25,150 nt of DNA from IMG/VR virus record IMGVR_UViG_3300042691_032078, positions 1 to 25,150 of that record; one strand, 5' to 3'. Below are positions 1 to 14,551 of this stretch, in pieces (the first letter of the stretch is position 1; each line of letters starts with the position of its first letter). The notes beneath the pieces are model-generated. The model saw only the letters and a program-made list of their open reading frames with translations, was not told the origin of the DNA and ran no database searches. A program made the translations under genes and the position numbers. This DNA comes from a virus.

Positions 1-3000
1 ACTTCAGGATGCGGTCGTCGCCGAACACCCCGGCGTCTTCCACCGGCGCCACCGGCACCTTCTTCTTGAACCCGAAGAGGATCGCGGTGCGGTTGGGGAT
101 GCCGGCAACCGCGTCGTAGAGGATTCCGTCGAAGCCGGCATCCGCCACCTCTTCCTCAAGTGCGTCGGCGTTAGGGTAAGTGTCTGCGACGATCCCTCGC
201 GGGTCAGCGGCGTAGTCGTAGAGGTTCGTCAGGCGAACGGAATAGCCGTTCTTGGCCGAGGCCAGCGCCTGCTCTTTGCCGGGCTGGGGGCCGCCGTCTT
301 CCTGCACGTAGAAGTTGAGGCGCGGGCTCTCAAGCCCGAAGCGACCGGGGCCAAAGCGCCGACGCTCGCCCCCCGCGAATGCGGTGCCGGCGAAGGTCGG
401 GTCCAACGCGTTCAACCCTCCCACCGGCGAGTAGTGGACCGCGAGCGCGGCCACTGCATCCTTCTGCGGCTTGCGGGCCGAGAAGGACGGCGGTGTTACG
501 CCTCCTTCCGGAAGCGCTTGTCCGAGTCGATTGCCAGCTGCGTCAGGTCCGCCGACATCACCTCGGCGACCCCCAGAACGGCTGAACTTGACTTCTCCGC
601 CTTGGTACTTCCGCTCGACTTCGCGGAAGACGTCCTCGATAGCGGGACCGAGTTCAGCCTCAAGCCGCCCAAGCTGATCCCCGAATCCGGCCTCAAGAAT
701 CCGCCGTCGATACCCTTCGCCATTGGTGTCCTCCTTCCAGTCATTCCCCACCAGCTCGCCGTCGGAGCGGAAACGAAGCGCCGTGAAAGTCAGTCCTTCC
801 GGCAAAGCCTTCGATGCGGCAGCAAACGCAACCTTGAACAGGTCGTCGTTCTTCTCCAACTGGCCGAAGTTGAGGAACCGAACGCCCGTCTCGTGGGGGA
901 TCGGGGCGACCTCCCGGGCGGTATCTTCCGACACCCCCTTGGCCATGATAGCACTGGTAACAGCGTCGTAGAGTTTTTGGGTCTCGTCCGGCGTCAACGG
1001 GCGCCCGAAATCAAGGTGAACGCCGTTGCTGGCCTTGTTCGTGTCCGAGTAGAACGGACGATGCCACGCCACCCCGTCCTGCTTGAGCAGCAGCCCGTAA
1101 ACTGCAGCAGCTGCGCCGAGTCGCGCTTTCGCAATCTCGGTCGCTGCCGGCTTCTCGGTCTTCAGCCCTTCGACCGGAACGTACTCGGCGGCGACCGCCA
1201 CGCGCTCCTGATTCGAGGGCGACACCGCACCCTGCCAGCCGCCGTAGCCGAACACCGAGGGCTCGGCGAGGATGTCGAACTCGCGCAGGATTCGGTCGCC
1301 GATTGCGTCAGCCATCCGCGCCTGAAGCTCGTTCTTCGCCTCCATGTTCTCGTGGATCCACGAGAGCAACGAGACGCTTTTGCTGGGAGTGGCTTCCCAC
1401 GCCAGCTGGCCACCGTTGGCGCGCAGCCCATTGCCGAAATGGAAGCCGGCGGTCTGCGCATCCTCGGCCGTCGGCGTGTGCGCCAGTGCGTTCTGCGCCC
1501 AGCGCAGTGCGTGCCGCGTTTCCGCAGCGTCGTCGGTGAATACGCGGTTGCGCTTTTCGTAGCGCATGTCCCCTGCCGCAATCGAATCCGCCTCGGTCTT
1601 CGCTTTGACCGTCGGGTTCTCCGACCGCGCCTTCATCGCCACCCAGATGGCCGCCTGCACCTGCTGGGGCTCCCAGCCCAGCTCCTTGGCGAGTCGGTTT
1701 GTCTCGATCTCGGCGAAGCGATACTGGGTAGCGGTGGGTGCGTCCGAGGGGTACTCGAATGCGCGCATCATCCACATGTCGATGGTCGCGCCCTGTAGGT
1801 CTTTCACGCGCGCCGGGTCGATGCGGGTCATCAGGTTGAGGTAGAAGTTGTTGGTCTTCTCCCCCATCCACTGGCGGACCGGAGCACCGTCGAACGCTGC
1901 CTGCGCTTTGCGGTCCTGCACCGCGGTCTTGACCGACACCGGCACCCCAGCCTTGAGCTGGTAGTAGGCCCGGATTGCGAGGGTTGTGTTGGAATCGACG
2001 CGGGCCTGCGGCGAATAGATCGCCAGCAGTTTGGCCATCAGGTCGGCGTCTTCGACGTTCCCGCCGACGAAGTCGAGAATGGCTTCGCTCGATTCTTCGT
2101 ACCAGAAGCGCCCGCTCTCCCCTTCCAGCGCCAATGCCTTCAACTGCTCGCGGAGTTTGCCGATCCGACGAACCGTGTTGTATTTCGGCGGGGCGCCGAT
2201 GTACTCCCCGTCCGCGTTCTTCGGGTGGTTGTACACCGCCCCGGCGCGGGACGCCGTACTCTCGCGCCCGGTGAGAGCCGCGCGAACTGCGTCGGAGAAG
2301 GTCGGCGAGATGTCCAGATACTCACCGCGGGCGTCGCGGCGGATCGCTCCGCGGGCGGGGATGTTCGCCTCGGCGATGAGCGCCCGGGCGCGTTCGAGGT
2401 CGCCTGAGACGCGCATACGCCCATCGCGTGCGGTCTGGAACGTGAACCCCTCCGCCGTGCCGGACCGACTGAACGCCAGCGCCTCGTCCACGGCCGCGCG
2501 CTCTCGACCCTCGGCGCTGTCGGGCCGGGCCGCGTAGGCTTCACGGTACTGGCCGCGGGAAGCGCGATCAGCCGCGCCGCGCGCCAAGGCGAGCAGCTGC
2601 TCGGGGGTGAACTGGCGGTCAAGGCCGAACCGGCGAAGGAAGCGATTGATCGCCGCCATGATGCGGTCGATCAGATCGATCTTCTGGTCGTAGTTCTGCT
2701 GGATGAAGTAGGCCAGCGCCTCTTCGGCGACGTCCTTGGGGTCGGTGTCCGGCGGCACCCGGTCGAACGCGTCCTTGACTCGGGCGTCGATCTTGGCCAG
2801 CGCCTTGAAGTCGGCGAGGACGTTGGCGAAGTCGCCGCCCAGCATTCCGCGCAGGCCATAGTGGACGCCGACCTCGTGGAGCGCGATGGCGGTCGCCGGC
2901 ACGTCCACCCACGAGCCGTCGTCCTGCTGCTCGCGCATCTCGTCGGCGATCAGGTACACGTCACCGTTGGGGGCGTAGAAGCCGCCGACCATCTCGCTGG

Positions 3001-6000
3001 GGGTCAGCTGACGGCGCCAGCGCTCCTCGACCTCTGCCCGGGTGTTGACCACCTTCAGCCACGGCTGGGCGCGCAGGCGCCGCGCCATGCGGGCGCCGAG
3101 ACCTTCGGTCAGCTCCCCCCAGACGCTGCTTTCAGTCCGCGAACGATTGCGAGGTGAAGCGGCACCGGCTCGATCCAAAGGACGCGCTGCGACTCCAGCT
3201 CGTCCAGCCAGATCGCCGCCGGCACGCTCTGCGCCCGCAAAAGCGCGCACGCTTCCGCGATCCGCGCCTCGGGGATCTCCGACTTGCCCCGGCGACTGCC
3301 CCCGAACAGAACTCTGGCCATCGGCTACACCTCCGCGGCTGCGGGAGTAGAGGAGGGCGTCGAGAGCAGACTTTGCCACGCCCCCAAGTGACTCTGCGCC
3401 AGCCTGTCCCAGTAGACGTCCGGATCCGGGAACGCCGCTGCGTGCTTTGCGTACGACGGCTGCTGCGAATACAGCTCTTTTAGCCGTGCTCGGACCAACG
3501 CCAACTTCTCTTGCTGCGTCGGTTCCTGCGATGTCGAGAAAGTCTTCATCGGTGGCCACCTCCCCGTTGGTCCACTCGAACTGTCGAGTGTTCTCATTAT
3601 ATGTGAGGTTGTGGAGGATGGGCAGCGCCTCGAACGCGTTCGACGCGCCCTTGAGGAACAGCAGGCCGGTGTTGCGGCGGTCGTCGCCCTCGAACTGAAA
3701 GCCTTCGACCCCCTGCGTGCGGTGCGGCACGAGGTGTTGGGTCGTACCCGTGCGCGCGGCCGATGCCGCCTGCTGCTCGGTCCGGCGGGTCTTGTTGATC
3801 TCGGTCAGGACGGTGTCAGGCAGCGCCTTCAGCCCGTTCCGCTGGGCGAACGTGTTGACGATGGCGTAGAGATGGCTGCCGTAGCCGCTGCCCTCGTCGA
3901 GTGCGCTTGCGTCCAGCCGCGTGCCGCCGTTGCCGAACACCTCCAGCGAGGCCTTGGTTCCATCCGGCATCGTGAAGTTGTAGACGTCGGACGCATTCGG
4001 TGAATACCCCTCCGGCATGCGCTCGACTTTGACCTTCGGCGCGACGGCCGCAGCGATGCCATCCATCGTCTGGACGCCTTCCGGCACCGGCGGCAGCTTG
4101 AACGCGCGTTCGCCGGCCCCGGCCACCTCGCGGAATGCGTCGGCGACCTCGTCGGCCATCGCGTCCCGGCTGCGAGGATCCACGAAGAACCAGTCCGGCT
4201 CGGAGTCCTCCGGCGCCGTCCCGTGGAGGCGACCCTCGGGGGTGTAGGTCGGCGTGCGCGGCTGCACGCGGCTGGACGACTTGCGGACGCGGTCTCCGCC
4301 GGCCGGCGCGTCGTCCTCGCGGTAGAAGTCCACCATCGGCGGCAGACCTTCCTCCGCCGCGTCCTGCTCTGCGCGCTGGCTGATGCCGCGCTCGGTGCGG
4401 AACTGAGCCAGTCGCTGGTCCAGCTCGGCCCGGCGCTCGTCCATCGAGCGCTGCGGCGCCTCCTGCTGCGGGGCCGGCATCGCTGCCGGCTGCAGGGCGG
4501 GTGGGGTGACGGCTGTCGTCACGTCTTCCTGTTTGCGCGAGCCCCAAACAGGGATCTCTTGCCGCATGCGACCGGCGCTGCGAAGCTGAGTGCCCGCAGG
4601 CAGCGTCGGCGCAATCGCAGCGCCTGCGGTCGGCAGCGGCTGCCGCACCTCGGCTCGGCGCGCGCTGCGCGCGCGGTCGAACGCGCCTGCGGCCAGATCC
4701 ACGCCTTCGACGGCAGCCGGCGTCGGCGCGGCCTCGACGATGCGCGTGGCGGTTTCGTTGGAACGCCGGGCGCGGTCGAACTCGCCCAGCGTCGGCAAGC
4801 CTTCGTTCGTGCTCCCCCAGATGTCGATCTGGCCCGCGCGGCGCGCTTGGTCTTCCGCGAGGCTAGGGTCGATCTCGGGATCGGTGAGCGCGCGGCGAAC
4901 GCGATACCCCTCGACGACTTCAGGTGCGGCGAACGCACCTGCGATGGGCGCCGTGGTCAGGGCGGCCTGCGCCACAGCGCTGCCGAGCCCCTCGGTTACG
5001 TCGCGGTCGCTGCCGGTGGACCGGGCGACCACGTTGCCTGTGAGTACATCGGCGGGCTCTTCGATCAGAGACTCGGTCGCGATCTCGCCGGCAACCTTCT
5101 TGCCGACCGACCCGGCGGCCATCTTGCCCGCCAGCAGGTCGTCAACGAAGTTGCCGCCGAGCTTGCTGGACAGGCCCGCGGTGGCCGCGCCGACGCCGCC
5201 CTGCGCGAGCACCGACCGCTGGATCCGCTCGCCTTTCAGCCGCAGATACGCCTGATCCGGGCCGATCTCCTCGGCCAGCTTCTGGAACGCGGGAGACTTC
5301 TGGATCACCCCAGCACGCCACTCGGCGTCGAAGTCGTCCGCCGCACCCGCACCGCCTTGGCCGCCGGTGACCAGTGCTGCGCCGCCCAGTACGCCGAGCG
5401 CTCGAGCTGCCGGGCCGAACTGCCCGAGCTGGTAGGCCGCCTCTTGCAGGGCACCGACAGGCTCGTCGAGGATCGCGCCGACCGTCCCCATGAACGAGGG
5501 GTTGTCCGCGATCCGAGACTGCATGCGCTGGCGCGCAGCAGGCATCGGGTAGCGCTCGTCTACGTGCTCCTGCAGCGCCTGCGCATAGTCGGCCCCCATA
5601 CGGCTGTATTGGGTTTGGTCCGCTACGGGCGCTGCAACCCCTCGGGATGACGCGGGCGCCGTGTTGGGGCCGAACAGCAAAGCCTCCTCATCGTAAAGCG
5701 GCTGATTGAGCACGTCGGCCGCAGTTCCTGCCGTGACGGCGCCCGCGCGCAGCACGCCGGCCGCCGCCTGCGGTGCGAGGTTGACCAGCGGGCCAGCGGC
5801 ATCCTCGATGTTGAGATCGCGGTCAAACCGGCTGGCTTTCCTGCTTTCGCGGAGCTTGCCATCAGTGCCCCAAACGCCGATCTGGCCCTCTTCGGACATC
5901 TGGACTTTCAGCTCTTCGAGCTGGCGCGCTTCTTCCCGGCGGGCAAACGCTTCTTCTGCCGTCTCCCGCTTGCGGCGGTTTCCGCGCCGGTTCATCCCGC

Positions 6001-6136
6001 GCGTGGGGACGCGGGAGTCGGCCGGTGGCTCTGAAACCACCGTCCACTCAGACGCCGGAGCCTTGGACGCCGGCGCCTCAGGCTCCGAGACCACGCGCCA
6101 TGCAGGCGCGGGCTCTGAAACGACCCGCCAGCTCAT
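1..6136 (-). CDS. Giant polyvalent virion protein (zincin + ADP-ribosyltransferase-like), C-terminus outside window
   Basis: One open frame of 2045 codons without a stop starts at ATG 6136 (ATGA overlap with the upstream gene) and leaves the window at base 1. Residues 3-37 hold three WxVVSEP copies. Gly/Ala-rich hydrophobic stretches near 243-265, 309-325 and 384-403 could touch membrane. Residues about 730-900 (GSGYGSHLYAI, TRRTEQ, GVGPSTAKRA) resemble a domain seen in phage polyvalent proteins. About 1015-1200 is a zincin-like metallopeptidase with HEVGVH at 1087-1092. About 1315-1510 (IDMWMMRA at 1452) and 1620-1800 (GVHLDFGRPLT, GNDWKED) resemble other polyvalent-associated domains. About 1895-2040 (VHYS at 1900, FAGTAF, AGFDGILYD) resembles phage ADP-ribosyltransferases. 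Linkers carry FSRS-type motifs. Polyvalent proteins are known to be delivered with phage or plasmid DNA and to counter host defences. That role here is inferred from domains and from its place after the ejection-protein cluster. Domain calls come from remembered family patterns. Confidence 0.82.
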   Translation of the reverse strand, partial: MSWRVVSEPAPAWRVVSEPEAPASKAPASEWTVVSEPPADSRVPTRGMNRRGNRRKRETAEEAFARREEARQLEELKVQMSEEGQIGVWGTDGKLRESRKASRFDRDLNIEDAAGPLVNLAPQAAAGVLRAGAVTAGTAADVLNQPLYDEEALLFGPNTAPASSRGVAAPVADQTQYSRMGADYAQALQEHVDERYPMPAARQRMQSRIADNPSFMGTVGAILDEPVGALQEAAYQLGQFGPAARALGVLGGAALVTGGQGGAGAADDFDAEWRAGVIQKSPAFQKLAEEIGPDQAYLRLKGERIQRSVLAQGGVGAATAGLSSKLGGNFVDDLLAGKMAAGSVGKKVAGEIATESLIEEPADVLTGNVVARSTGSDRDVTEGLGSAVAQAALTTAPIAGAFAAPEVVEGYRVRRALTDPEIDPSLAEDQARRAGQIDIWGSTNEGLPTLGEFDRARRSNETATRIVEAAPTPAAVEGVDLAAGAFDRARSARRAEVRQPLPTAGAAIAPTLPAGTQLRSAGRMRQEIPVWGSRKQEDVTTAVTPPALQPAAMPAPQQEAPQRSMDERRAELDQRLAQFRTERGISQRAEQDAAEEGLPPMVDFYREDDAPAGGDRVRKSSSRVQPRTPTYTPEGRLHGTAPEDSEPDWFFVDPRSRDAMADEVADAFREVAGAGERAFKLPPVPEGVQTMDGIAAAVAPKVKVERMPEGYSPNASDVYNFTMPDGTKASLEVFGNGGTRLDASALDEGSGYGSHLYAIVNTFAQRNGLKALPDTVLTEINKTRRTEQQAASAARTGTTQHLVPHRTQGVEGFQFEGDDRRNTGLLFLKGASNAFEALPILHNLTYNENTRQFEWTNGEVATDEDFLDIAGTDAAREVGVGPSTAKRAVFAAAVVRKARSGVPGSGRLLGQAGAESLGGVAKSALDALLYSRSRGGVADGQSSVRGQSPGQVGDPRGADRGSVRAFAGAERAGGDLAGRAGVAARPLDRAGAASPRNRSRTESSVWGELTEGLGARMARRLRAQPWLKVVNTRAEVEERWRRQLTPSEMVGGFYAPNGDVYLIADEMREQQDDGSWVDVPATAIALHEVGVHYGLRGMLGGDFANVLADFKALAKIDARVKDAFDRVPPDTDPKDVAEEALAYFIQQNYDQKIDLIDRIMAAINRFLRRFGLDRQFTPEQLLALARGAADRASRGQYREAYAARPDSAEGRERAAVDEALAFSRSGTAEGFTFQTARDGRMRVSGDLERARALIAEANIPARGAIRRDARGEYLDISPTFSDAVRAALTGRESTASRAGAVYNHPKNADGEYIGAPPKYNTVRRIGKLREQLKALALEGESGRFWYEESSEAILDFVGGNVEDADLMAKLLAIYSPQARVDSNTTLAIRAYYQLKAGVPVSVKTAVQDRKAQAAFDGAPVRQWMGEKTNNFYLNLMTRIDPARVKDLQGATIDMWMMRAFEYPSDAPTATQYRFAEIETNRLAKELGWEPQQVQAAIWVAMKARSENPTVKAKTEADSIAAGDMRYEKRNRVFTDDAAETRHALRWAQNALAHTPTAEDAQTAGFHFGNGLRANGGQLAWEATPSKSVSLLSWIHENMEAKNELQARMADAIGDRILREFDILAEPSVFGYGGWQGAVSPSNQERVAVAAEYVPVEGLKTEKPAATEIAKARLGAAAAVYGLLLKQDGVAWHRPFYSDTNKASNGVHLDFGRPLTPDETQKLYDAVTSAIMAKGVSEDTAREVAPIPHETGVRFLNFGQLEKNDDLFKVAFAAASKALPEGLTFTALRFRSDGELVGNDWKEDTNGEGYRRRILEAGFGDQLGRLEAELGPAIEDVFREVERKYQGGEVKFSRSGGRRGDVGGPDAAGNRLGQALPEGGVTPPSFSARKPQKDAVAALAVHYSPVGGLNALDPTFAGTAFAGGERRRFGPGRFGLESPRLNFYVQEDGGPQPGKEQALASAKNGYSVRLTNLYDYAADPRGIVADTYPNADALEEEVADAGFDGILYDAVAGIPNRTAILFGFKKKVPVAPVEDAGVFGDDRILK
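496..723 (-). CDS. Nested small protein (75 aa) in the +1 frame of the giant gene
   Basis: I do not recognise this protein. ATG 723 follows a perfect AAGGAGG with a 6-base spacer, and the frame ends with TAA. It lies wholly inside the giant ORF, shifted by +1, opposite giant residues about 1805-1881. By hand count 63 of 75 codons end in G or C (84%), against 40 of 77 (52%) in the giant frame over the same DNA. The C-terminal third (GVAEVMSADLTQLAIDSD) reads like an ordinary helical protein. The first half is Ser/Gly-rich and less convincing. In the giant frame the same DNA gives a plausible helix (LEAELGPAIEDVFREVE), so both frames may be translated. It has no membrane segment or signal peptide. 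It could instead be a chance ORF with a lucky ribosome site. Confidence 0.45.
   Translation of the reverse strand: MAKGIDGGFLRPDSGISLGGLRLNSVPLSRTSSAKSSGSTKAEKSSSAVLGVAEVMSADLTQLAIDSDKRFRKEA
730..736 (-). promoter_or_regulatory. Strong Shine-Dalgarno inside the giant gene
   Basis: The minus strand reads AAGGAGG-ACACCA-ATG. This is a full-length anti-16S match with a 6-base spacer to the ATG at 723. It lies in the middle of giant-frame codons (DWKEDTN), where no ribosome site is expected, and is the main argument for the nested gene at 496-723. Confidence 0.55.
3109..3321 (-). CDS. Nested small protein (70 aa), second of a tandem pair
   Basis: Function is not recognised. ATG 3321 follows GGAGG with an 8-base spacer. 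The upstream small gene ends at 3325, so the two are nearly contiguous and probably coupled. Of 70 codons, 57 end in G or C (81% by hand count), while the giant frame over the same bases reaches only 37 of 70 (53%). The composition is that of a normal soluble protein: an Arg/Lys-rich start (FGGSRRGKSEIPEARIAEA), then a segment with AAIWLDELESQ and LWIEPVPLHLAIV. There is no clear membrane helix. It lies opposite a low-complexity Gly/Ala/Arg/Ser linker of the giant protein (residues about 939-1009), just before the zincin domain. Either the linker was overprinted by this gene or the small gene was absorbed into the giant frame. Confidence 0.62.
   Translation of the reverse strand: MARVLFGGSRRGKSEIPEARIAEACALLRAQSVPAAIWLDELESQRVLWIEPVPLHLAIVRGLKAASGGS
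3325..3549 (-). CDS. Nested small protein (74 aa), first of a tandem pair
   Basis: Function is not recognised. I start it at ATG 3549 rather than at an earlier in-frame codon (3597), because only 3549 has a ribosome site (GGAGG, 9-base spacer). It stops with TAG. The protein is hydrophilic and mostly helical in appearance: QEKLALVRARLKELYSQQ near residues 13-30, then DPDVYWDRLAQSHLGAW and a Ser/Pro/Ala tail. By hand count 56 of 74 codons end in G or C (76%), against 37 of 75 (49%) in the giant frame over the same bases. The 5' third overlaps what looks like the end of a polyvalent-associated domain (GVGPSTAKRA, giant residues 879-888), so here both frames seem constrained. The surrounding DNA is also less GC-rich than its neighbours. 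Confidence 0.62.
   Translation of the reverse strand: MKTFSTSQEPTQQEKLALVRARLKELYSQQPSYAKHAAAFPDPDVYWDRLAQSHLGAWQSLLSTPSSTPAAAEV
3330..3334 (-). promoter_or_regulatory. Shine-Dalgarno for the 70-aa nested gene
   Basis: GGAGG followed by TGTAGCCG and ATG 3321. It is embedded in the last codons of the preceding 74-aa gene, as expected for coupled small genes. It fixes the start at 3321. Confidence 0.55.
3559..3563 (-). promoter_or_regulatory. Shine-Dalgarno for the 74-aa nested gene
   Basis: GGAGG followed by TGGCCACCG and ATG 3549. It lies within giant-frame codons (NGEVAT). It selects 3549 as the start over the in-frame codon at 3597, which has no comparable site. Confidence 0.55.
3596..3601 (-). 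promoter_or_regulatory. Possible -10 box (TATAAT) upstream of nested gene pair
   Basis: A perfect TATAAT on the minus strand lies 46 bases before the ATG at 3549, in a short dip of GC content (32 of 60 bases G or C in 3541-3600). No good -35 is present at 16-18 bases; the best is TGCCCA. The bases also encode part of TYNE in the giant frame, so the match may be coincidence. Confidence 0.22.
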
Positions 6137-7158
6137 CGCTTCGGTTCCATCTGCCCGTTGGGCAGGATCACCCATTCGTTACCCTGAGCGTCGGCCACGA
6201 CGGTCCCGGGTGCCTTGCCTTTGAGTTCTTCCGGTACAGGCTGCGTGCCGCCACTCTTAGCGCCGCCCTTATCGCCGCCCTTATCGCTCGGCGTGTCCAC
6301 GTCGAACAGCGGCGCCACGCGCTCGCGAACGAGCTTGCGCGCGGTGTTTTCGTCGAGCGGCTTGCCGTTGTACATCGGGCCTTGCCGCTCGTTCGGGCTG
6401 AACTCTCCGAAGATCTTGCCCGGCTCGGTCCACTTGCCCATCTCCACCCCAGCGACAGGGGCGCCGTAGGACTCCGCCAGTGCGAGGATGTTCTCCACCC
6501 CTTGCGTCTTGGTCAGCTCGGTGCTGAACTCCTTCAACCCCTTGACCGCCGTCAGCCGCTCGGTGGGGGTCGGCTTGCGGCTCGGGGCGTCGTTGTTGGC
6601 GTCGTCAGTTTTCCAGCGAGGCCCGCGCCCCACCTCAACCCAGTTACCGTTGGTCCATTCCTGCTGAACCGCTTCCCCAGTCTCCCGGTCGTAGACGGTG
6701 CGGGTCTTCGGCGCCGCTCCGCTCCCGCCACTGCCGCTCGGGCGGCTGCGGTACATTTCGGTGCGCTCGCGGTAGTTCTCCGCGTCCATCTCCGCCTTGT
6801 CGCGGCGGAACTCCATCATCGCCGCATCCTTCGGATCCAGCGCGTACGGGTCGGGCACGGTGTACTCCGGCCCGTCCTGCATCAGCGAGGGCTGGATGAT
6901 GCGGTTCTCTTCGTCGAACTGGGCACGCGTGGGCACCTTGGTCTGCTGGACCCAGTTGCCCGGGCCGCGCTGCACCGGCGCGCCGAACGGGGTCGGCGCC
7001 TGCGGTTCGAGGTCGTACTTGGCCTCGTACTGCATGCGGATGCGGCGGCGCTCCAGCGCCTCCTGCAGCTTGAGCTGGCGGGCCTCGTCAGACCGGCGCA
7101 TGCCCTCGTTGCCGGCCGCGGTCAGGAAACTGCCAGCGAAGTCTCCGAGGAAGCTCAC
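6133..7158 (-). CDS. Putative internal virion (ejection) protein, 341 aa
   Basis: No family is recognised with certainty. The start is GTG 7158, overlapping the previous stop (GTGA) and preceded by AGGAGGG with a 6-base spacer inside that gene. The N-terminus (MSFLGDFAGSFLTAAG) is a short amphipathic Gly/Ala/Phe helix followed by an Arg-rich helix, the same plan as the 117-aa protein at 7654-8007. The middle is hydrophilic with a Ser/Gly linker near residues 140-150, then a possible small beta motif (TVYDRETGEAVQQEWTNG). Lys/Gly repeats (DKGGDKGG) precede the C-terminal segment, which ends NEWVILPNGQMEPKR. Its position between nozzle and giant protein matches the T7 internal core genes. It could be a chaperone or connector rather than an ejected protein. 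Confidence 0.72.
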   Translation of the reverse strand: MSFLGDFAGSFLTAAGNEGMRRSDEARQLKLQEALERRRIRMQYEAKYDLEPQAPTPFGAPVQRGPGNWVQQTKVPTRAQFDEENRIIQPSLMQDGPEYTVPDPYALDPKDAAMMEFRRDKAEMDAENYRERTEMYRSRPSGSGGSGAAPKTRTVYDRETGEAVQQEWTNGNWVEVGRGPRWKTDDANNDAPSRKPTPTERLTAVKGLKEFSTELTKTQGVENILALAESYGAPVAGVEMGKWTEPGKIFGEFSPNERQGPMYNGKPLDENTARKLVRERVAPLFDVDTPSDKGGDKGGAKSGGTQPVPEELKGKAPGTVVADAQGNEWVILPNGQMEPKR

Positions 7159-7652
7159 AGCATGCCCTCCTGCATCAATCCACCCGGCTGGGGCGGCGCA
7201 GGTTGCGGTGCGGCCCCGGGCGCCGGGGCGCCGGGCTGCATCGGCATGCTACCCATCGCGCCCCCTGCCTGATTGAGCAGCTCGCCCAGCTTGGCAACGG
7301 TGGCCTCGCCGAGCTGGCGGCCCATCTCTTCGTCCCCTTCTTCCGGCAGGTAGCCCGCCTCGCCGGCGATGTCGATCAACTCCTGCACCAGATAGATGGC
7401 GATGCCGTCACCTTCGTCGGTGCCGAACAGCTCGTCGTCCGGCAGATCCAGCTCCTGCTGCATCCGCATGATGATCGGGAACACCAGCAACGCGACCGCG
7501 GTGGGGATGTCACTCGACCCCTCGAACGCAGCGCTGATTGCCGGCGCGAAGTCTTCGGACACGATCATTTCGAGGGCCGAACTGAGTGCGTCCTCGGGCG
7601 TCATCGGCGCCGCGGCAGGCGCGGCTTCGGGCGGCATCATCTGAGGCGTCAT
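7155..7652 (-). CDS. Acidic Pro/Ala-flanked phage protein, 165 aa
   Basis: Unknown function. ATG 7652 follows the upstream stop by one base (TGAGATG). The N-terminus (residues 1-18) is Met/Pro/Ala-rich. The core (about 19-130) is acidic and helical, with one hydrophobic stretch (AVALLVFPIIM, about 52-62) too short and polar-flanked for a sure membrane helix, and acidic patches such as LPDDELFGTDEGD. The tail from about 130 is Gly/Met/Pro/Ala-rich and low in complexity. Pro-rich ends around a small helical core are common in phage internal or assembly-factor proteins. The gene sits in the predicted ejection-protein cluster. Packaging into the virion is inference from order only. Confidence 0.72.
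   Translation of the reverse strand: MTPQMMPPEAAPAAAPMTPEDALSSALEMIVSEDFAPAISAAFEGSSDIPTAVALLVFPIIMRMQQELDLPDDELFGTDEGDGIAIYLVQELIDIAGEAGYLPEEGDEEMGRQLGEATVAKLGELLNQAGGAMGSMPMQPGAPAPGAAPQPAPPQPGGLMQEGML
7165..7171 (-). promoter_or_regulatory. Shine-Dalgarno that fixes a GTG start
   Basis: AGGAGGG followed by CATGCT and GTG 7158. It is encoded inside the C-terminal codons of the preceding 165-aa gene. It supports the GTG as the start of the 341-aa protein. Confidence 0.6.
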
Positions 7653-7653
7653 C

Positions 7654-8007
7654 TCACCCTCCCATCTGCATCAGCCCGCTCTTGCGGCGGGAGTTGCTTG
7701 TCGGCTTGTCTTCAGGGACGACTGGCACCTCGATCCGCGAGGGGTTGGTGTCGGTGTACTCGGGGGAGAAGTAGTCGCCGCGAGACCGGGAGCGGAACCC
7801 GCCGATGGCCTCCTCTTTGTAGCGCCGATCCTCCAGATCCCAGCGCCGCCCGGCCTCCAGCTCGGCCCGGCGGTTGGCCGCCTGCAGCCGCTCCAGCCGC
7901 TCCAAAAAGGCGCGCTCTTCCTTGCTATTGCGGTCGTTTTCCTTGCGCGAGCTGCGATTGTTCAACGCGCTCCCAAGCGCCTGCGCCGCCATTGCCCACC
8001 AAGACAT
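7654..8007 (-). CDS. Small basic coiled-coil phage protein, 117 aa
   Basis: Unknown function. ATG 8007 lies two bases after the previous stop (TAACCATG). Residues 1-15 (MSWWAMAAQALGSAL) form a short hydrophobic Trp/Ala/Gly segment. Residues about 18-70 are a highly charged helix (KEERAFLERLERLQAANRR), likely a coiled coil. The remainder is polar, with basic Ser/Arg patches at the end. A small membrane-touching N-terminus followed by a charged helix is typical of the short internal proteins between nozzle and large ejection proteins in podoviruses. A role in ejection is inferred from place and composition. It could also be a DNA- or core-binding factor. Confidence 0.7.
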   Translation of the reverse strand: MSWWAMAAQALGSALNNRSSRKENDRNSKEERAFLERLERLQAANRRAELEAGRRWDLEDRRYKEEAIGGFRSRSRGDYFSPEYTDTNPSRIEVPVVPEDKPTSNSRRKSGLMQMGG

Positions 8008-8009
8008 GG

Positions 8010-8894
8010 TTAACCTCCGCCCCCGCGATTACGGCCGAAGAATCGGTCAAAAACACTCCCGAACTCCGAAGTGAAAAAGTCGATGAACCCACTCGCGCCG
8101 TTCTGATCACGCCAGTACGACGGGTCGGAAAAGAGCGTGGTGCCCATCATCTGCATCATGTCGCGGAACATCGAGAACCGCTGCTCACTGTTCATGTTCT
8201 CGCGCTCCCAAGCGCGAGTTTCGCGTCCGAAGTCGCGGTCCAGCGCAGACTCGCCGCTGCGCCACCCGCGGTCGCGGTCGGCTTCGGCGCTGCGGGCGGC
8301 CCACTCTTCGCGGCTCAGTCCGCGGTCGAGCCCGGATTCGCGGCTGCGCCACTCGCGCTCGCCCAGCGTCATCTCGCGGTCGAAAATGCGACCGGCCTCG
8401 GCCTCGCTGATGTTCAACTCCGACTGGAGTCGCATGAGCTGCTGCTGGCGCTCGAACTCGATGTCGGCGTCCAGCTGGTTGGGTCCGATCTGGACACCCC
8501 CGCCCTGCGCGCTGGCCGTCTGGCGGTTCATCTCGGCGATGGCCGCAGCGTTCAGCGCCTCCGCATTCTGCGCGCTGGCTTGCGCGTGGATCTGGGCGTC
8601 CGCCTGTGCGATAGGCATCGCCGCCTGCAACGCCGCCTGCTGGCTGGCTTGCGCCGCCATCGACGAGTTCTGCAAGCCCCGGCGTGCAGCGAAAGCCTCG
8701 CCCTGCTTGCCCGCCAGTCGCATCAGCGGATTGCCAGATGACTGCAGCTGGGCCATGTTGCCAGCGACAGTTTCGTTGGCGCCGGGCTTGCGCAGGTACA
8801 TCGACCCGGAACGCATCAGGCCGCCGGTGACCGGCCCCTCATGCGCAGGTCGCTGCGTCCACTGCCCAGTGTTCTGGTCGTAAACAGCCGTCAT
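8010..8894 (-). CDS. Putative internal virion protein with Ala/Gln helix and Arg/Glu repeats, 294 aa
   Basis: ATG 8894 overlaps the nozzle stop (ATGA). Residues 66-128 are an Ala/Gln/Met-rich helical stretch starting AARRGLQNSSMAAQA. I associate that pattern with internal virion proteins of podoviruses. Residues 145-235 are charged helix with a duplicated motif, WRSxESxLDRxxxRE, at 182-197 and 211-226. The C-terminus (about 270-288, FIDFFTSEFGSVFDRFF) is an aromatic amphipathic helix, followed by an Arg/Gly tail. The gene is first after the nozzle, the place held by the T7 internal core genes. The likely role is part of the ejectosome that crosses the envelope. The amphipathic C-terminus would suit membrane contact. 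No enzymatic motif is visible. Confidence 0.75.
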   Translation of the reverse strand: MTAVYDQNTGQWTQRPAHEGPVTGGLMRSGSMYLRKPGANETVAGNMAQLQSSGNPLMRLAGKQGEAFAARRGLQNSSMAAQASQQAALQAAMPIAQADAQIHAQASAQNAEALNAAAIAEMNRQTASAQGGGVQIGPNQLDADIEFERQQQLMRLQSELNISEAEAGRIFDREMTLGEREWRSRESGLDRGLSREEWAARSAEADRDRGWRSGESALDRDFGRETRAWERENMNSEQRFSMFRDMMQMMGTTLFSDPSYWRDQNGASGFIDFFTSEFGSVFDRFFGRNRGGGG

Positions 8895-11800
8895 GACTTC
8901 GGATCCTCCGGCTCAAACCGGACAACGATGTTTTGGATCGTATGCGGCAGCATGCTGGCGCTGATCGACTCGATCAGGATCGTTACATCCTCGCCTTCGC
9001 CGCGCAACGTGTGAATGGCCCTGTAGCAGCCCTCGGTGATCGACGCCCCGGTGGAGACCCCGAAGTCGTACAGCGTGCCCGTGGTCGACGTGCCGGTGGT
9101 CTCGTCGCTGACCGGGGTGGTGTAGTCGAACCCCTTGAACACCTTAAATTGTGCGTACCCGTAGGCCCGCCCGTGGAATCCGACTTGGTCAAGGTGCTTG
9201 CGGTAGAACGGCGGCCCCATCTGCAGCGGCTGGGTGGTCCATTGGGCGATAATCTCCTCACCGTCAAACGAACGCCCCGCGTCGATCTGGAACACGTACC
9301 GATACCGCGAGTGCTCGGGGTCACGGGCAAACGTCATGAATGCCACATCCTGCCCCGTGGACGTGGTGCCGTGGCACGCGGTCAGCACGGTGATCGCCGA
9401 CCCGTCCCGGTCCTGCCAGTCGCCGTAGAAGCGCTGGGTGGTAACCGCCACCCCGTCCCTCGGGGTGAACGTGAGGGTCGCCTGCCAGCCGTCGGCGAAG
9501 ACGTAGCGGCACTGACGTTTGTTGCGCATCACGTAGGCCGCGCGGAAGGTCTTGTCGGTCGTCTGGTTGCGTGTCGGCAGCTGCAGGCGTTCGAGGAACC
9601 ACGGCGTGGCTCCCTCCGCCAGCCGCCCGGAGCTGAAGTCGCCGTACTGATCGGTCGTCGCCAGCGTCGCAGGCCCGCCGAAGTCGAGGAAGACCGGCTG
9701 TCCGATGTCCAACACGCTGTACTCGATGGCCCCGGAATTGGGCGTGATCTCCACGCGCTCCAGCCCGGTCGACGGGTCGGTTCCTTGGATCGCGGAGATT
9801 GAGCTTTCGGTGAACACGCCGAGGCTGTTGCCCTTCATCTTGACGAGCCCGGTGACCGCATCACCTGCGCCGATCTCCGCGGCCAATGACGCGGCGTCGA
9901 GGTAGGTCAATGGGTCTCCTACGTCGGACACCGAGACCGAGCCGGTCTTGTAGCCCATCGCAAGGTAGGTGCCCGCCCAGACGACGTGCCGCGGCTTCTC
10001 GAATTGCGTCAGCAGGCCGGTCTGGATCGGCAGCAGGTGCTCCCCGTCGAACATGTGCCCGTGCTCGGCACCGTTGACGATGAAGGTGACGTCGTATTGA
10101 TCGCTGGCGTAGGGGTTCGCGGAGTGAAAGACGTACTGGGCGTCCTCTGCGTCTACGGCGTAGCTCGACGCCATCGTGATTGGCTCGTCGGTGCTGGCGC
10201 AGTACGCCAGCAGCGCGCCGCCACGGTCGTCTTCAGTGTAGATGCCCATATCCGGGCCGAACAGCCACGGGCGCGAATACGCCGTGCCGATGCTGGAGTT
10301 GACCACCAGCAGGCCGCGGCGGTCGCCGTTGGGCGGCGTCGTGGTCGCGCTGCCTTCGGCGACCGTGTAGTGGATCACTTCGATCTCTTGATCCCAAGGG
10401 CTCCCGCCAGAGTTGTTGACGAACGCCTTGCGGGTCTGCTCTTGGTAGTAGACCTTGACCTGCACCGCGTCCACGTAGACGCTGGACAGCGCTCCGCCCT
10501 GCAGGCGGAACGCAAGCTGGACGTTGAACCCACCGTCATTGATGTCGGACGGCTTCAGCTCGGTCAGCCCGTTACCCCAGACGTCGTTTGCGCCGCCGTA
10601 GGTCTGCTCGCGCCCCGCGCCGCCGGCGGCGACCACCGGCAGATTGCGCGTGGTGTCGGCCTTGTTGCTGCGTGTCGGCGTGCTGGTGCAGCCGATGGTG
10701 ACCAGCTCCTCCTTGGCGCCGGTCTGTGCGCGCCGATACACGCGCACCTCGATCCCGCGAACCAGCGCACCCCCGGGGATCTGCAGCGCATCGGCGCTGA
10801 AGGTTGCCTTGAGCGTGTTGGTGCGTAGTGCCAGTGAGCTGCCACTATCGCCGGCCTCGGACAGGTCATCGGCTTGCAGGTTGCCGGCGTCCAGCCCGCT
10901 CCATGAGGTACTGCCGCCGCCAATGTCTTCAGCTAGCGTGTCGGAGCCGACCCAGCCAGTGTCCAACACTTCATCGGCGTCGAGCTGGGAGATGTAGCCG
11001 CGGCGAACGTAGGGCAGGAAAAATGCGTCCAAAGCGGTCGCGGCGGTCTCGACGTACTCCAGCTGACGGCCGAGGTCGAGTCGCGTCCACCCGCCCTCGC
11101 TGTCCCAGTATGCGCAGTAGAGCGTCGCGCGCAGCGGCGCGACGTGGTCAACCAAGTCGCCGACCTTGTCCACCAGCACGAGGCTGACGTTGTCGATGGC
11201 GCCGGTGAACCCGGTGCCTGTGAAGATCAGCTGCCCTGCACCCGACGCCGTGATGTACTCCGCATAGGTGCCTGCGGCCGAACGCGAGAAGCCGGTGACG
11301 CCCCCGAAGGTCGGCTGGACCGTTCCGGCGCTGTAACTGGTGATGGTGTACTGCAGACGGTAGGTCAGCCCATTGACTGCGGCGCGGCTGTTCGTCAGCG
11401 TGCTGTTGGTCGCGGTGGCCACGCCAGCCGTGGTCCAGCCGGCCCCTGCGGTCCATTCGGTGATCGGTGCGGTGAACGAGCCGTTGTTGGCAAGGTCGCG
11501 CGCCACAATGCGGACCGAGACGTCATCCACCGTGCCCGTAAACGCAGCGTCGGGGGTGATCGTCAGCACGCCCGCGCCGGTGGCGGTCAGGGTGTCGGTG
11601 TAGGTGCCGCTGGCAGTGCGCGGCGTCGTACTGGTGGCCCCGCCGATACCGACCGAGGTGATCTGCCCAGCGGTGACCGTGATCGTGTAGGTGATCTCGT
11701 AGCTATAGCCCGCAACGCCCGCCAGCGCGTGGGTGAGAGGGCTCGCACCTGCAACCGCGACCGTAGCGACGCCGGCGGCACCGGAAGTAAACCCCCACCC

Positions 11801-12652
11801 GGCTGTCGGGTTGGTCCAGTCGGTTGCGGTCGCCGCGGCGGTGAAGAAGTTGCCGTTGCGGACGAGGTTGGCTGACGCACAAGGGGTGTACAGCTCGGTG
11901 GCTGCCGCCATGTCCTGCCCGACGTTGTAGTCGAACAGCTCCCAGATGACGTCCGCCGGGGTGCCGTCCACCGTGCGCGCCAGCGCCAGCGTACCGATGG
12001 CGCTCGTGCGCGTGCCGCCGTAGATCGGCGCGCCTTCCAGCGGCATTGGCGCAGCCGTCGGGGTCAGCTGAATCGCAACGAGGTCGTTGATGGCGAACAG
12101 CTTGTCGTTGAAGAAGTGCAGCCCCGGCACCCGGGTCATCGAGTCGCCGGGGAGTGCGGTGACCAGTGCGGCGTACCCAGCGTAGCTCCCGGGCTGCCAC
12201 TCGGTAGACGCAGACTCGGCAGTGCCGAGGGTCAAGTTGAAGCCCGCAAGGCTGCCGGGGGTCGAGAGGTTGATCGGTTCAAGCAGCGTGGCGAACCCGG
12301 TGTGCCGATATAGCGGATCCTCGGCGACCAGCACCGGCGTATCCACCCGATCCACGACCGCGCGCGTTGTCGTGACGGTCTCGCCGGTGAGGTCGTCGAT
12401 GTAGATCAAAGTCCCGATTTCCCCGACGGTGAACCCCGGGCTCGCGGAGGGTAGGAGAAGCTCAAACTCGAAGCCGTACGAGGTGATCGGGTTCCCGTCC
12501 CATCGGCTGAAGCCGTCGATGCGCCGGATCCCGCGGTTGATGCCGACCTCGTAGTTCAGGCACGCCTGCGCGGTGCCCGGATCTACGGAGAGTTTGTCGG
12601 TTGCGAGATCGAGGCCGCCGGTGATTGGGATTACCTGCTGTTTTGCGGCCAC
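8891..12652 (-). CDS. Tail nozzle-like structural protein with inserted beta modules, 1253 aa
   Basis: GTG 12652 lies one base after the adaptor stop. The N-terminus (IPITGGLDLATDK, PGTAQACLNYE, GINRGIRRIDGFSRWDG, residues 8-52) resembles proteins that podoviruses place after the head-tail adaptor, comparable in role to T7 gp12 or P22 gp10. The protein is beta-rich and has no membrane segments. At 1253 residues it is far longer than those relatives. The excess is explained by inserts: two tandem jelly-roll-like modules (residues 260-383 and 385-494) and another beta-sandwich-like module (about 570-736). The core resumes near 740 with Tyr/Gly/Asp-rich strands and ends in a beta-rich domain. 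It probably forms the tail tube tip, with inserts displayed outward to bind host glycans. The exact homology is uncertain; the structural role is firmer. Confidence 0.78.
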   Translation of the reverse strand: MAAKQQVIPITGGLDLATDKLSVDPGTAQACLNYEVGINRGIRRIDGFSRWDGNPITSYGFEFELLLPSASPGFTVGEIGTLIYIDDLTGETVTTTRAVVDRVDTPVLVAEDPLYRHTGFATLLEPINLSTPGSLAGFNLTLGTAESASTEWQPGSYAGYAALVTALPGDSMTRVPGLHFFNDKLFAINDLVAIQLTPTAAPMPLEGAPIYGGTRTSAIGTLALARTVDGTPADVIWELFDYNVGQDMAAATELYTPCASANLVRNGNFFTAAATATDWTNPTAGWGFTSGAAGVATVAVAGASPLTHALAGVAGYSYEITYTITVTAGQITSVGIGGATSTTPRTASGTYTDTLTATGAGVLTITPDAAFTGTVDDVSVRIVARDLANNGSFTAPITEWTAGAGWTTAGVATATNSTLTNSRAAVNGLTYRLQYTITSYSAGTVQPTFGGVTGFSRSAAGTYAEYITASGAGQLIFTGTGFTGAIDNVSLVLVDKVGDLVDHVAPLRATLYCAYWDSEGGWTRLDLGRQLEYVETAATALDAFFLPYVRRGYISQLDADEVLDTGWVGSDTLAEDIGGGSTSWSGLDAGNLQADDLSEAGDSGSSLALRTNTLKATFSADALQIPGGALVRGIEVRVYRRAQTGAKEELVTIGCTSTPTRSNKADTTRNLPVVAAGGAGREQTYGGANDVWGNGLTELKPSDINDGGFNVQLAFRLQGGALSSVYVDAVQVKVYYQEQTRKAFVNNSGGSPWDQEIEVIHYTVAEGSATTTPPNGDRRGLLVVNSSIGTAYSRPWLFGPDMGIYTEDDRGGALLAYCASTDEPITMASSYAVDAEDAQYVFHSANPYASDQYDVTFIVNGAEHGHMFDGEHLLPIQTGLLTQFEKPRHVVWAGTYLAMGYKTGSVSVSDVGDPLTYLDAASLAAEIGAGDAVTGLVKMKGNSLGVFTESSISAIQGTDPSTGLERVEITPNSGAIEYSVLDIGQPVFLDFGGPATLATTDQYGDFSSGRLAEGATPWFLERLQLPTRNQTTDKTFRAAYVMRNKRQCRYVFADGWQATLTFTPRDGVAVTTQRFYGDWQDRDGSAITVLTACHGTTSTGQDVAFMTFARDPEHSRYRYVFQIDAGRSFDGEEIIAQWTTQPLQMGPPFYRKHLDQVGFHGRAYGYAQFKVFKGFDYTTPVSDETTGTSTTGTLYDFGVSTGASITEGCYRAIHTLRGEGEDVTILIESISASMLPHTIQNIVVRFEPEDPKS
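10445..10945 (-). other. Additional beta-sandwich-like module in the nozzle protein
   Basis: Residues about 570-736 of the 1253-aa protein. They show alternating hydrophobic strands (GALVRGIEVRVYRRA), a YGGANDVWGNGLT turn, a DINDGGFNVQLAF strand and an ending VDAVQVKVYY. I associate this pattern with a module that recurs in phage tail proteins. It follows the two jelly-roll modules, so inserts occupy about 480 consecutive residues. Confidence 0.5.
11171..11500 (-). repeat. Jelly-roll-like module B (nozzle residues 385-494)
   Basis: It shares WTAGAGW, YRLQYTIT, SRSAAGTY and FTGTGFTGAIDNVSL with the module in the adjacent adaptor gene (13053-13394), and a weaker match with module A just upstream. 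The module is about 110 residues and resembles carbohydrate-binding jelly rolls. The copies arose by duplication within and between neighbouring genes. Confidence 0.75.
11504..11875 (-). repeat. Jelly-roll-like module A (nozzle residues 260-383)
   Basis: Starts ANLVRNGNF and contains YEITYTITVTAGQI, RTASGTYTDTLTATGAG and FTGTVDDVSV, matching modules B and C motif by motif. It is in tandem with module B and separated from it by one or two residues. Confidence 0.72.
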
Positions 12653-12653
12653 G

Positions 12654-13703
12654 TCAGATCCTTGCGGCGGGGAGATACCTTGCCTTGATCGGTCGAATCA
12701 GCTCTTCAAACCGCCGGTCCGCGATCTGGAACATGTCCAGCTTCGCGCGCGTTTCGGCCCAGTAGCGAACCGCGTACCAGACGACGGCGTCGTGGAACTC
12801 GGTCGGGAGACCGCGGCCGGTGGAGGGCCAGTCCTCGAAGTTCGTGCTGTCGTCGGAGGTCGTGTAGATCTTCGGCTTGCAGAGGTAATCGAGCTTCAGT
12901 GCGTAGTTGGCGTCGGGGGTCGGGTAAACCTCCCACGTTTGGTCTGGGCGGATCGTGAAGTACATTGGCGCACCGCTGGCGACCGGGGAGCGGTCGCGCA
13001 GGCCGCGGAAGTCGGCGTACTCCATGAAGTAGACCGGCAGCTCTGCCACGCCACTGGCGGCAGTCAGGATGACGTCGTCCACCGTCCCGGTGAAGCTGGT
13101 GCCGGTGAAGACCAAGGTCGAAGCCCCGGACGTCGCCACGGTGATGTCGTCGGTGTAGGTGCCCGATGCCGAGCGCGACGTTCCGTTAACCCCTGCGAGC
13201 GAAGGTTGGATGCTGCCAGCCGTGCGGGTGATCGTGTACTGGACCCGGTAGGTCGTTCCGGAGGTCACTGAAGCCGCGGCGGCCAGCGTGGAGCTGGCCG
13301 TAGTGCCTGTGGCGATGCTGTTGGCTACGGCCCAGCCGGCGCCCGCCGTCCACGCGCTGGCGCTGCTGAAATCGCCGGAAGTCAGGAGATTCGAGCCTCG
13401 CAGCACGTATCGCCGCCCGCCCTGCTTGAACGGAATCCAGTCCCGATAGTTGGTCAGCCCGGCCGTCGGAACGACCGTCGAGACACCAGACGTGAAGGCC
13501 AGCATGCCCTGCTGGATCAGCCAGCCCCACTTGTACATCGTCTGGAAGTTGGTCAGCGCCATCAGCACCCACTCGACCAGCTCTGCAAGCTCGTCGGTCT
13601 GGCCGGCCAGCGTCGTCGGCACCGTGCCGGGCTTCGCGGTGTTGCCGCGAGAGCCCAGTCCGGTCAGCAGGTGGACGCGCTTGGCGATGGCGAGGATGTT
13701 CAC
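12654..13703 (-). CDS. Head-tail adaptor-like protein with inserted jelly-roll module, 349 aa
   Basis: GTG 13703 overlaps the previous stop (GTGA). Residues 1-100 (ILAIAKRVHLLTGLG, DELAELVEWVLMALTNFQ) are helical and resemble podovirus adaptor or tail-tubular-A proteins. Residues about 218-349 (VYFMEYADFRGLRDR, PMYFTIRPDQTWEVYPTPD, ALKLDYLCKPKIY) continue the same adaptor pattern. Between them, residues 104-217 form an independent jelly-roll-like module. Removing that insert leaves a core of about 235 residues, close to the usual adaptor size (T7 gp11 is about 200). The protein should bind the portal ring and carry the nozzle encoded next. An external domain on an adaptor is unusual and would project from the neck. 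The start and frame are secure. Confidence 0.8.
   Translation of the reverse strand: MNILAIAKRVHLLTGLGSRGNTAKPGTVPTTLAGQTDELAELVEWVLMALTNFQTMYKWGWLIQQGMLAFTSGVSTVVPTAGLTNYRDWIPFKQGGRRYVLRGSNLLTSGDFSSASAWTAGAGWAVANSIATGTTASSTLAAAASVTSGTTYRVQYTITRTAGSIQPSLAGVNGTSRSASGTYTDDITVATSGASTLVFTGTSFTGTVDDVILTAASGVAELPVYFMEYADFRGLRDRSPVASGAPMYFTIRPDQTWEVYPTPDANYALKLDYLCKPKIYTTSDDSTNFEDWPSTGRGLPTEFHDAVVWYAVRYWAETRAKLDMFQIADRRFEELIRPIKARYLPAARI
13053..13394 (-). repeat. Jelly-roll-like module C (adaptor residues 104-217)
   Basis: It begins SNLLTSGDF and ends FTGTSFTGTVDDVIL. It shares WTAGAGW, YRVQYTIT, SRSASGTYTDDIT and the closing FTG motif with module B of the next gene. It interrupts the adaptor fold between a GGRRYVLRG strand and the VYFMEY segment. 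Confidence 0.78.
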
Positions 13704-14551
13704 GCGGCTTCTTCCTGCGGCTCCAGCTGCTCGGGCGTCAACCCCAGAAGCTGCAGGATTTCGCGGCGCCAGTAGCCGATCTCGCGGTCGCGGTCGCGGT
13801 CATTCGGCCGGGCGCCGTCGGTCAACATGCCCCAGACGCGCTCCAGCGTGTCGCGGCCTTCGTTGGCGTAGAGGTCGTGCGCCTGCGCGTCGCGCTGCAG
13901 CCATTCGCTCAGGCTCGCCGGCAGGTGCTCGGTGCCCGGGGTCGGACCCATGAACTGGATCGGGAAACGGGCATAAACGTGCCAATTCCGGTCCATCTCC
14001 TTGGTCTGGCTGTTCCACTCCATGATCAGCTGACGGGCCTGCGAGTCGGCGACGTTGTAGAAGATCGGTGCCGGAACGTCCTGATACGGCAGCTTCGGGT
14101 CGAGCATGAAGACCTCGCCCTCCCAGCCGACCGGGATGCGACGGGCGCCGCCGCGCTGCTGGTCCTGCGGCAGGACGCGGATGCGGAAGCGCTGGCCTTC
14201 CCATTTGCTCAGGCTGGTGAGGCGCGGCGGCCGGCGGTTGCCGGAGCCGAACGGGACCGGGCCGGTCGAAGCGGCGGCAGGCTTGACCTTCGTCGCACGC
14301 TTCACCCCGGCGGAAATGCGGGCTTCCAGATCCACCAGCGCGCTGGCGCGAGCCGGCGTGGATCCATCGACGCCGGTGTCCCAGCGGTCGTAGTGCTGCA
14401 GCAGCTTGCGCGTCATGGAGTCGATGGAGTCCGACGGGGACACTCCAATCTCCAAGTGCTGGCAAACCATGCGCAGCTCGGGCTTGCTGCGGCCGGCGAA
14501 GTTGGCTGCGAGCCATTCCGGCAGCTTGGCGCTGATCTCTTCGGGCGTCAT
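13700..14551 (-). CDS. Phage protein of unknown function in head-tail region, 283 aa
   Basis: Not recognised. ATG 14551 has GAGGA with a 6-base spacer and is the first gene after a 79-base gap that holds a hairpin. Residues 1-60 look like a small helical domain (EEISAKLPEWLAANF, KPELRMVCQHLEI, TRKLLQHYDRW), similar in feel to a SAP- or LEM-like DNA-binding fold. Residues about 85-105 are a Pro/Ala/Gly linker. The rest is a mixed fold (FRIRVLPQDQ, VGWEGEVFMLDPKLPY, NWHVYARFPIQF), and the end is helical with ERVWGMLTDGARPND and LLGLTPEQLEP. It lies between the probable head protein and the adaptor, so a minor head or DNA-end-binding virion role is possible. That is inference. Confidence 0.72.
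   Translation of the reverse strand: MTPEEISAKLPEWLAANFAGRSKPELRMVCQHLEIGVSPSDSIDSMTRKLLQHYDRWDTGVDGSTPARASALVDLEARISAGVKRATKVKPAAASTGPVPFGSGNRRPPRLTSLSKWEGQRFRIRVLPQDQQRGGARRIPVGWEGEVFMLDPKLPYQDVPAPIFYNVADSQARQLIMEWNSQTKEMDRNWHVYARFPIQFMGPTPGTEHLPASLSEWLQRDAQAHDLYANEGRDTLERVWGMLTDGARPNDRDRDREIGYWRREILQLLGLTPEQLEPQEEAA

Follow-up and report, generated by a model that had tools for sequence, protein, structure and literature searches.

Genes nested within other genes, such as Rz1, are of a known kind, and most overlapping genes recorded in phages are isolated examples; annotation programs suppress such genes. The locus described here raises the question of whether two small open reading frames (ORF1 and ORF2), which lie one after the other in the +1 frame of a giant polyvalent-type phage gene, are genes overprinted upon it or separate genes that were merged with it. 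The original prediction allowed for both of these possibilities.

The giant gene and its nested reading frames

The stretch of DNA that was analysed (the window) is a virus record of 25,150 bases, which contains a terminase gene and portal-like and major head genes, all of them on the minus strand. The features of interest are summarized in Table 1. The giant gene is identified by its LPD37 domain, for which the window protein scored 87.5 bits against a profile cut-off of 27 and the giant protein of a related IMG/VR contig (L003) scored 121.8 bits. DUF7178 was also detected in the window protein by Pfam, and no methylase or helicase domain was found by Pfam in this protein, which is incomplete at the contig end. 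Elsewhere in the window (8891..12652, minus strand), a protein of 1253 aa matched nothing in PHROG, and its one Pfam match, to the PATR repeat, was below threshold.

Table 1. Positions in the window of the giant gene, its nested reading frames and associated features.
Feature	Coordinates	Strand	Description
Giant polyvalent-type gene	2..6175	-	2058 open codons, runs off the contig end; LPD37, zincin-like HEVGVH stretch, DUF7178
LPD37 domain (PF18853)	3446..4129	-	Giant residues 683-910; Pfam E=1.3e-24; last helices overlap ORF1
YSRS of the LLYSRS linker motif	3338..3349	-	Giant frame; present in relatives too
ORF1	3549..3325	-	Nested +1 gene (very probable), 74 aa, conserved; core RARLKELYSQQPSYAKHAA...YW
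ORF1 ribosome-binding site GGAGG	3559..3563	-	9 nt before ATG
ORF2	3321..3109	-	Nested +1 ORF, 70 aa, only in the window phage
ORF2 ribosome-binding site GGAGG	3330..3334	-	8 nt before ATG; adjoins ORF1 stop
ORF3	723..496	-	Third nested +1 gene (candidate), 75 aa, MAKGIDGGFLRP..., spans the giant FSRS linker; 90% identical in L003
ORF3 ribosome-binding site GGAGG (AAGGAGG)	730..734	-	6 nt before ATG

Both ORF1 and ORF2 begin at position 2 of a codon in the giant frame, and hence both are in the +1 frame. Their coordinates and sizes, the absence of stops from the giant frame across them (6175..2 is open throughout) and the spacing of their GGAGG sites are all as originally predicted; no strand had been given, and the whole arrangement lies on the minus strand. 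The duplex energy of the ORF1 ribosome site is -12.3 kcal/mol, compared with a background 5th percentile of -7.0. The G+C content of third codon positions (GC3), earlier counted by hand, was reproduced to within 1% upon recomputation: it is 0.76 and 0.81 in the frames of ORF1 and ORF2, and the same stretches read in the giant frame give 0.49 and 0.54. Along the giant frame, GC3 is near 0.9 but drops to 0.42-0.62 over the region of these two ORFs, with a shallower dip at 700-470. The stop-free length of ORF1 and ORF2 is by itself not unusual, as the +1 frame is free of stops in 21% of the 74-codon windows in ordinary genes of the window phage. What exceeds chance is the inversion of composition (giant GC3 of 0.51 against a null of 0.83+/-0.04, reached in 0 of 20,000 resamplings) and the conservation across relatives.

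In the AlphaFold model, the confident part of LPD37 reaches approximately giant residue 912, so that the last helix of LPD37 and the first helix of ORF1 are encoded by the same DNA; confidence is low beyond this residue, where the giant chain is probably disordered. This arrangement fits overprinting at a domain end or linker, where the giant protein would be expected to tolerate change.

ORF1 in relatives and selection upon its two frames

When the ORF1 and ORF2 proteins were each used alone to scan IMG/VR, nothing was found, and a scan with the flanks of the giant gene identified one relative, L003, whose giant gene (6135-14273) is open for 2713 codons to the record end. Its ORF1 homologue occupies the same place, is 75 aa long and 55% identical, aligns without gaps at the DNA level and has its own ribosome site. 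GenBank phages searched by tblastn, with LPD37 and the pieces that follow it as queries, gave no match, nor did GTDB genomes searched with alignment A2, and the giant gene is absent from the phage genomes nearest by terminase (TerL), viz. EBPR podovirus 1, CV-1-33 and ct2G2228. An alignment of TerL led to prophages in sequenced genomes, LPD37 being present in three of the 30 searched (Gilvimarinus chinensis, Acidovorax and Hydrogenophaga); in all three a +1 homologue of ORF1 is present at the LPD37 end. Eight more LPD37 loci were found in genomes of Burkholderiales and Gammaproteobacteria; seven, including four decayed remnants, have the homologue, and the eighth (L102) stops short of the ORF1 core. 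By tblastn, the nested protein alone gave weak matches (E=0.3) to the Erwinia phages PEp14 and Stean, located within a DarB-like gene of 4914 codons and in its +1 frame; the LPD37 giant is annotated as DarB-like in the PEp14 GenBank record. In Pavtok the +1 frame is likewise open, with 43/65 identity to the nested protein of PEp14. Additionally, a profile built solely from the small protein detected 13 loci in IMG/VR, including that on the L003 contig, all in the +1 frame of a giant ORF. An ORF1 homologue is present, always in the +1 frame at the end of LPD37, wherever the LPD37 C-end of another phage or prophage could be read (about 17 further loci, PEp14, Stean and Pavtok among them). The C-ends read are those of prophages L091-L101 and L104, of PEp14 and Stean (L105/L106) and of IMG/VR loci L107-L118.

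When the nested profile was compared with 399 Burkholderiales genomes, the eight that matched represented six LPD37 loci, one decayed remnant and L127 (G254:C3:2771-2908), and no clearly intact stand-alone copy of ORF1 was seen. At L127 an ORF1-family ORF of 68 aa is open and the giant frame is full of stops; either this is a remnant whose nested frame has survived longer than its giant frame, or the ORF is a stand-alone copy. In the decayed prophage remnants L099, L100, L101 and L104, only the LPD37 C-end and the nested ORF are left, and downstream of the L101 remnant there is a short repeat in many copies, which reads SGQSSYPDRVE in one frame.

Selection upon both frames was examined using 16 distinct sequences and 2000 codon resamplings over the 21 ungapped codons of the core, a test that ignores shared ancestry and in which most pairs are distant. 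The identity of the nested proteins was 0.41, compared with 0.18+/-0.01 expected if the giant protein alone were selected, and that of the giant proteins was 0.36, compared with 0.20+/-0.01 if the nested protein alone were selected; both values lie beyond all 2000 resamplings. Neither frame of the core contains a stop, where 13 and 7.8 were expected. For the window and L003, with the giant proteins held fixed, 37 positions are identical in the +1 frame against a null of 27.2+/-3.5 (P=0.004; P=0.0005 by similarity score), and with the ORF1 proteins held fixed the giant identity also exceeds expectation (P=0.0009).

The synonymous sites of the giant gene provide further information. Within the nested gene they are identical at 59/59 sites between PEp14 and Stean (2459/2979 outside it, P=1.4e-5), at 49/51 between L110 and L116 (756/1161, P=2e-7), at 45/48 between L113 and L116 (785/1179, P=1.1e-5) and at 42/49 between L107 and L109 (972/1412, P=0.006). 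Synonymous constraint, which the original prediction proposed to measure, is hence present in most close pairs but not in all, since there is no synonymous excess for window/L003 (27/43 in ORF1, 851/1306 outside, P=0.69) or for PEp14/Pavtok (31/44 in the nested gene, P=0.89). In several pairs, the differences inside the nested gene move from the third position of the giant codon, which is the second of the nested one, to the first, which is the nested third. Giant codons 1026-1176 show high synonymous identity despite normal GC3 and stops in the +1 frame; synonymous identity alone is therefore insufficient and was used only together with other signals. The GC3 dip of the giant frame at ORF1 is seen in nearly all relatives, the AT-rich giants L107 and L109 having none. 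Given two intact frames, each under selection, in distant phages and prophages, ORF1 is very probably a real gene that has been overprinted, in the +1 frame, upon the C-terminal end of LPD37.

ORF2 presents a different case. Its codon signal is the strongest among the three nested ORFs of the window, and it has a good ribosome site; however, no homologue was detected in any relative, and in L003 about 44 codons are missing at this place and the remainder has no start codon. A pair of tandem genes that are both conserved is thus not supported; ORF2, judging from one sequence, is probably a real, recently gained and phage-specific gene. Between the window and L003 there is also a mosaic boundary inside ORF2, at 3172, with an identity of 84% below this position and 67% at 3324-4810; a step this sharp likely represents a recombination junction.

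Further +1 genes in giant polyvalent genes

A scan for synonymous constraint and +1 codon usage revealed ORF3, which the original prediction had missed, as it had the +1 nesting in several giant genes. Between the window and L003, 64/70 synonymous sites of ORF3 are identical, selection upon both frames being supported by this one pair, and ORF3 appears to be a second nested gene of the same kind as ORF1. A profile match of ORF3 to CTX-M (E=0.0021; 17.5 bits against a cut-off of 570) was taken as chance.

A contest between frames was carried out on 16 giant polyvalent or DarB-like genes (50,161 codons), with 18 other large phage genes (13,365 codons) as controls. In the giants, 26 segments favour the +1 frame and one the +2 frame; since some of the giants are closely related, not every one of these 26 counts independently, and a few may not be genes. 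No segment was found in the 18 control genes or in P1 darB, and none arose in five replicates in which the giants were shuffled synonymously with their proteins and codon counts kept.

Further nested +1 genes were observed in PEp14, Parlo, BcepIL02, L107/L109, L110/L113, L111 and L131-L134. The ORFs of this set in L128 (PEp14 giant codons 794-897 and 1565-1672), L136 (Parlo) and L130 (BcepIL02) lie in giants of the DarB-like type, from phages of Erwinia, Serratia and Burkholderia. Among their slots, one seems to be conserved in both PEp14 and Parlo, and another holds sequences that differ by phage. A second slot in PEp14, Stean and Pavtok (MNLNNW...) and a slot in BcepIL02, DC1 and JC1 (MTETQLLELL... 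or MTATQLLDVL...) are each conserved within their group and preceded by a ribosome-like site. The second nested sequence of PEp14 (L105:1-246) matches positions 2109-2173 of the 2185-position phrog_938 (endolysin) with E=2e-9, and in other phages it may share the frame of a large protein.

Based upon these observations, the balance leans towards regarding the giant virion polyvalent genes of podoviruses as a standing site of overprinting, most of them having one to three small +1 genes at domain ends or linkers. Some slots, such as the LPD37 end, would keep one gene over distant phages and others would differ, and together these genes would form a hidden accessory set tied to the giant protein.

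Alternative readings, function and related systems

Two alternatives would deny that both frames are coding. According to one, the small ORFs are true genes and the giant read-through is a recent non-functional fusion, due to loss of a stop, or an assembly error. Features of the giant frame over ORF2 agree with this, as it is there a low-complexity G/A/R-rich linker (75% G/A/R/S/P/D) with poor codon usage, in a stretch that is missing from L003. However, across ORF1 the giant frame is intact in all relatives except the decayed remnants, its conservation exceeds what ORF1 imposes, and both the LPD37 homology and the confident fold reach into ORF1. The +1 frame, whose disruption in relatives with an intact giant frame had been proposed as a check, has no stops in the homologous core of the intact relatives, and L003, an independent assembly, has the same intact giant frame. 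A fusion or an assembly error is ruled out for ORF1 by the intact and selected giant frames of the relatives and by L003, and the alternative as a whole is highly improbable; of the two possibilities originally raised, overprinting is retained for ORF1 and merger is not, the same +1 gene being found in the intact giants of many relatives with both frames selected. According to the other, only the giant frame is real, and the linkers of a GC-rich genome would, through their amino-acid composition, give rise to the +1 ORFs and the GC3 dips as a side effect. The frequency of chance +1 ORFs of this length is in its favour, but the 26 observed segments against none upon shuffling, the conservation of the nested amino-acid sequence across phages and the frozen synonymous sites of most close pairs leave it hardly credible.

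Two other readings accept the coding of both frames. The nested sequence might be expressed by programmed ribosomal frameshifting, as the C-terminal tail of a shorter giant protein. This agrees with the variable position of the ORF1 start, with the ribosome sites that are weak or absent in L093, L098, L107, L110, L113 and L116, and with the match of the second PEp14 sequence to the tail of phrog_938. It is nevertheless quite unlikely, given the strong and well-spaced ribosome sites of ORF1 in the window, L003, L091, L096 and L101, of ORF3 and of the BcepIL02 and DC1 nested genes; furthermore, a search for a slippery site, which was not systematic, identified none. Independent starts are likely, if less firmly so in the relatives with weak sites. 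A narrower reading of the same dual-coding gene holds that the nested protein provides immunity, as an antitoxin against an enzymatic domain of the giant. The nested gene is always encoded with the giant and presumably made in the same cell, and polyvalent proteins carry effector enzymes (PMC5512222). However, the nested gene stays constant at LPD37 while the sequence after LPD37 varies among phages, and no match to an immunity family was found, making this role rather unlikely.

If, as we favour, the nested frames are overprinted genes, ribosomes on the late mRNA of the giant gene would initiate separately at the internal GGAGG...ATG, so that the giant protein would be accompanied by a small one, soluble and helical. 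Neither ORF1 nor ORF2 matched Pfam, PHROG or NCBIfam at E<=0.001, nor did 11 members of the ORF1 family match Pfam or PHROGs at this threshold, and a fold search with the ORF1 model (pLDDT 71) returned nothing better than E>=4.6. The giant protein is probably of the DarB-like kind that is carried in virions. Such a protein is present in the JC1 virion (PMC9144972), and in P1 the head contains DarB, a giant protein acting against restriction, together with small proteins of the phage that assist it, e.g. Ulx (PMC9024508). The nested proteins could then be dedicated partners of the giant, acting as a chaperone or packaging helper or as a silencer of its enzymatic domains in the producing cell; that they are assembly- or packaging-type partners of a giant virion protein is a tentative suggestion, drawn from the small same-phage helpers of P1 DarB (Ulx, DdrA and Hdf). 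The P1 helpers differ in being encoded by separate genes, with ulx directly 3' of darB, and P1 darB has no nested +1 segment.

The closest parallel in arrangement is that of the Rz/Rz1 spanins, where a small phage gene is also wholly nested in another frame of a larger one and both are functional. Embedded Rz/Rz1 genes have been described in JC1 (PMC9144972) and are annotated in the PEp14 record. Unlike Rz1, the ORF1 protein lacks cysteine and is hydrophilic (GRAVY -0.55), and thus has no lipobox; its host is a virion-type gene of more than 2000 codons, and such hosts hold several nested genes each. The host shares LPD37 with the large polyvalent proteins (Iyer et al., 2017; PMC5512222), but the nested protein itself gave no match to any Pfam family, and the text of that study, as searched for LPD37, overlapping, nested and frame, makes no mention of a gene inside polyvalent genes. 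As with other overprinted genes of viruses (reviewed in PMC8227390), the alternative-frame gene is recognisable by its codon usage, whereas ORF1 is distinguished by its retention over distant phages and prophages and by the recurrence of nesting within a single class of giant genes, where it is found at domain ends and in linkers. The nested genes are unannotated in the GenBank records of the related phages examined. We found no prior report of a family nested in LPD37 and conserved across phages, or of recurrent +1 nesting in giant polyvalent genes, in a literature of which that on Bcep22 and P1 Dar was only partly covered.

These results indicate that one unannotated nested family spans phages and prophages of several bacterial groups, within genes whose products presumably reach the host cell first. 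A deletion or a domain swap in one of the giants can affect two proteins together, and, because the C-end of the Pfam LPD37 domain overlaps a second protein, conservation there has two causes. Nested +1 genes are available for study in the isolated phages PEp14, Pavtok, Stean, Parlo, BcepIL02, DC1 and JC1, and the accessory partners of DarB-like proteins may sit within the giant gene itself.
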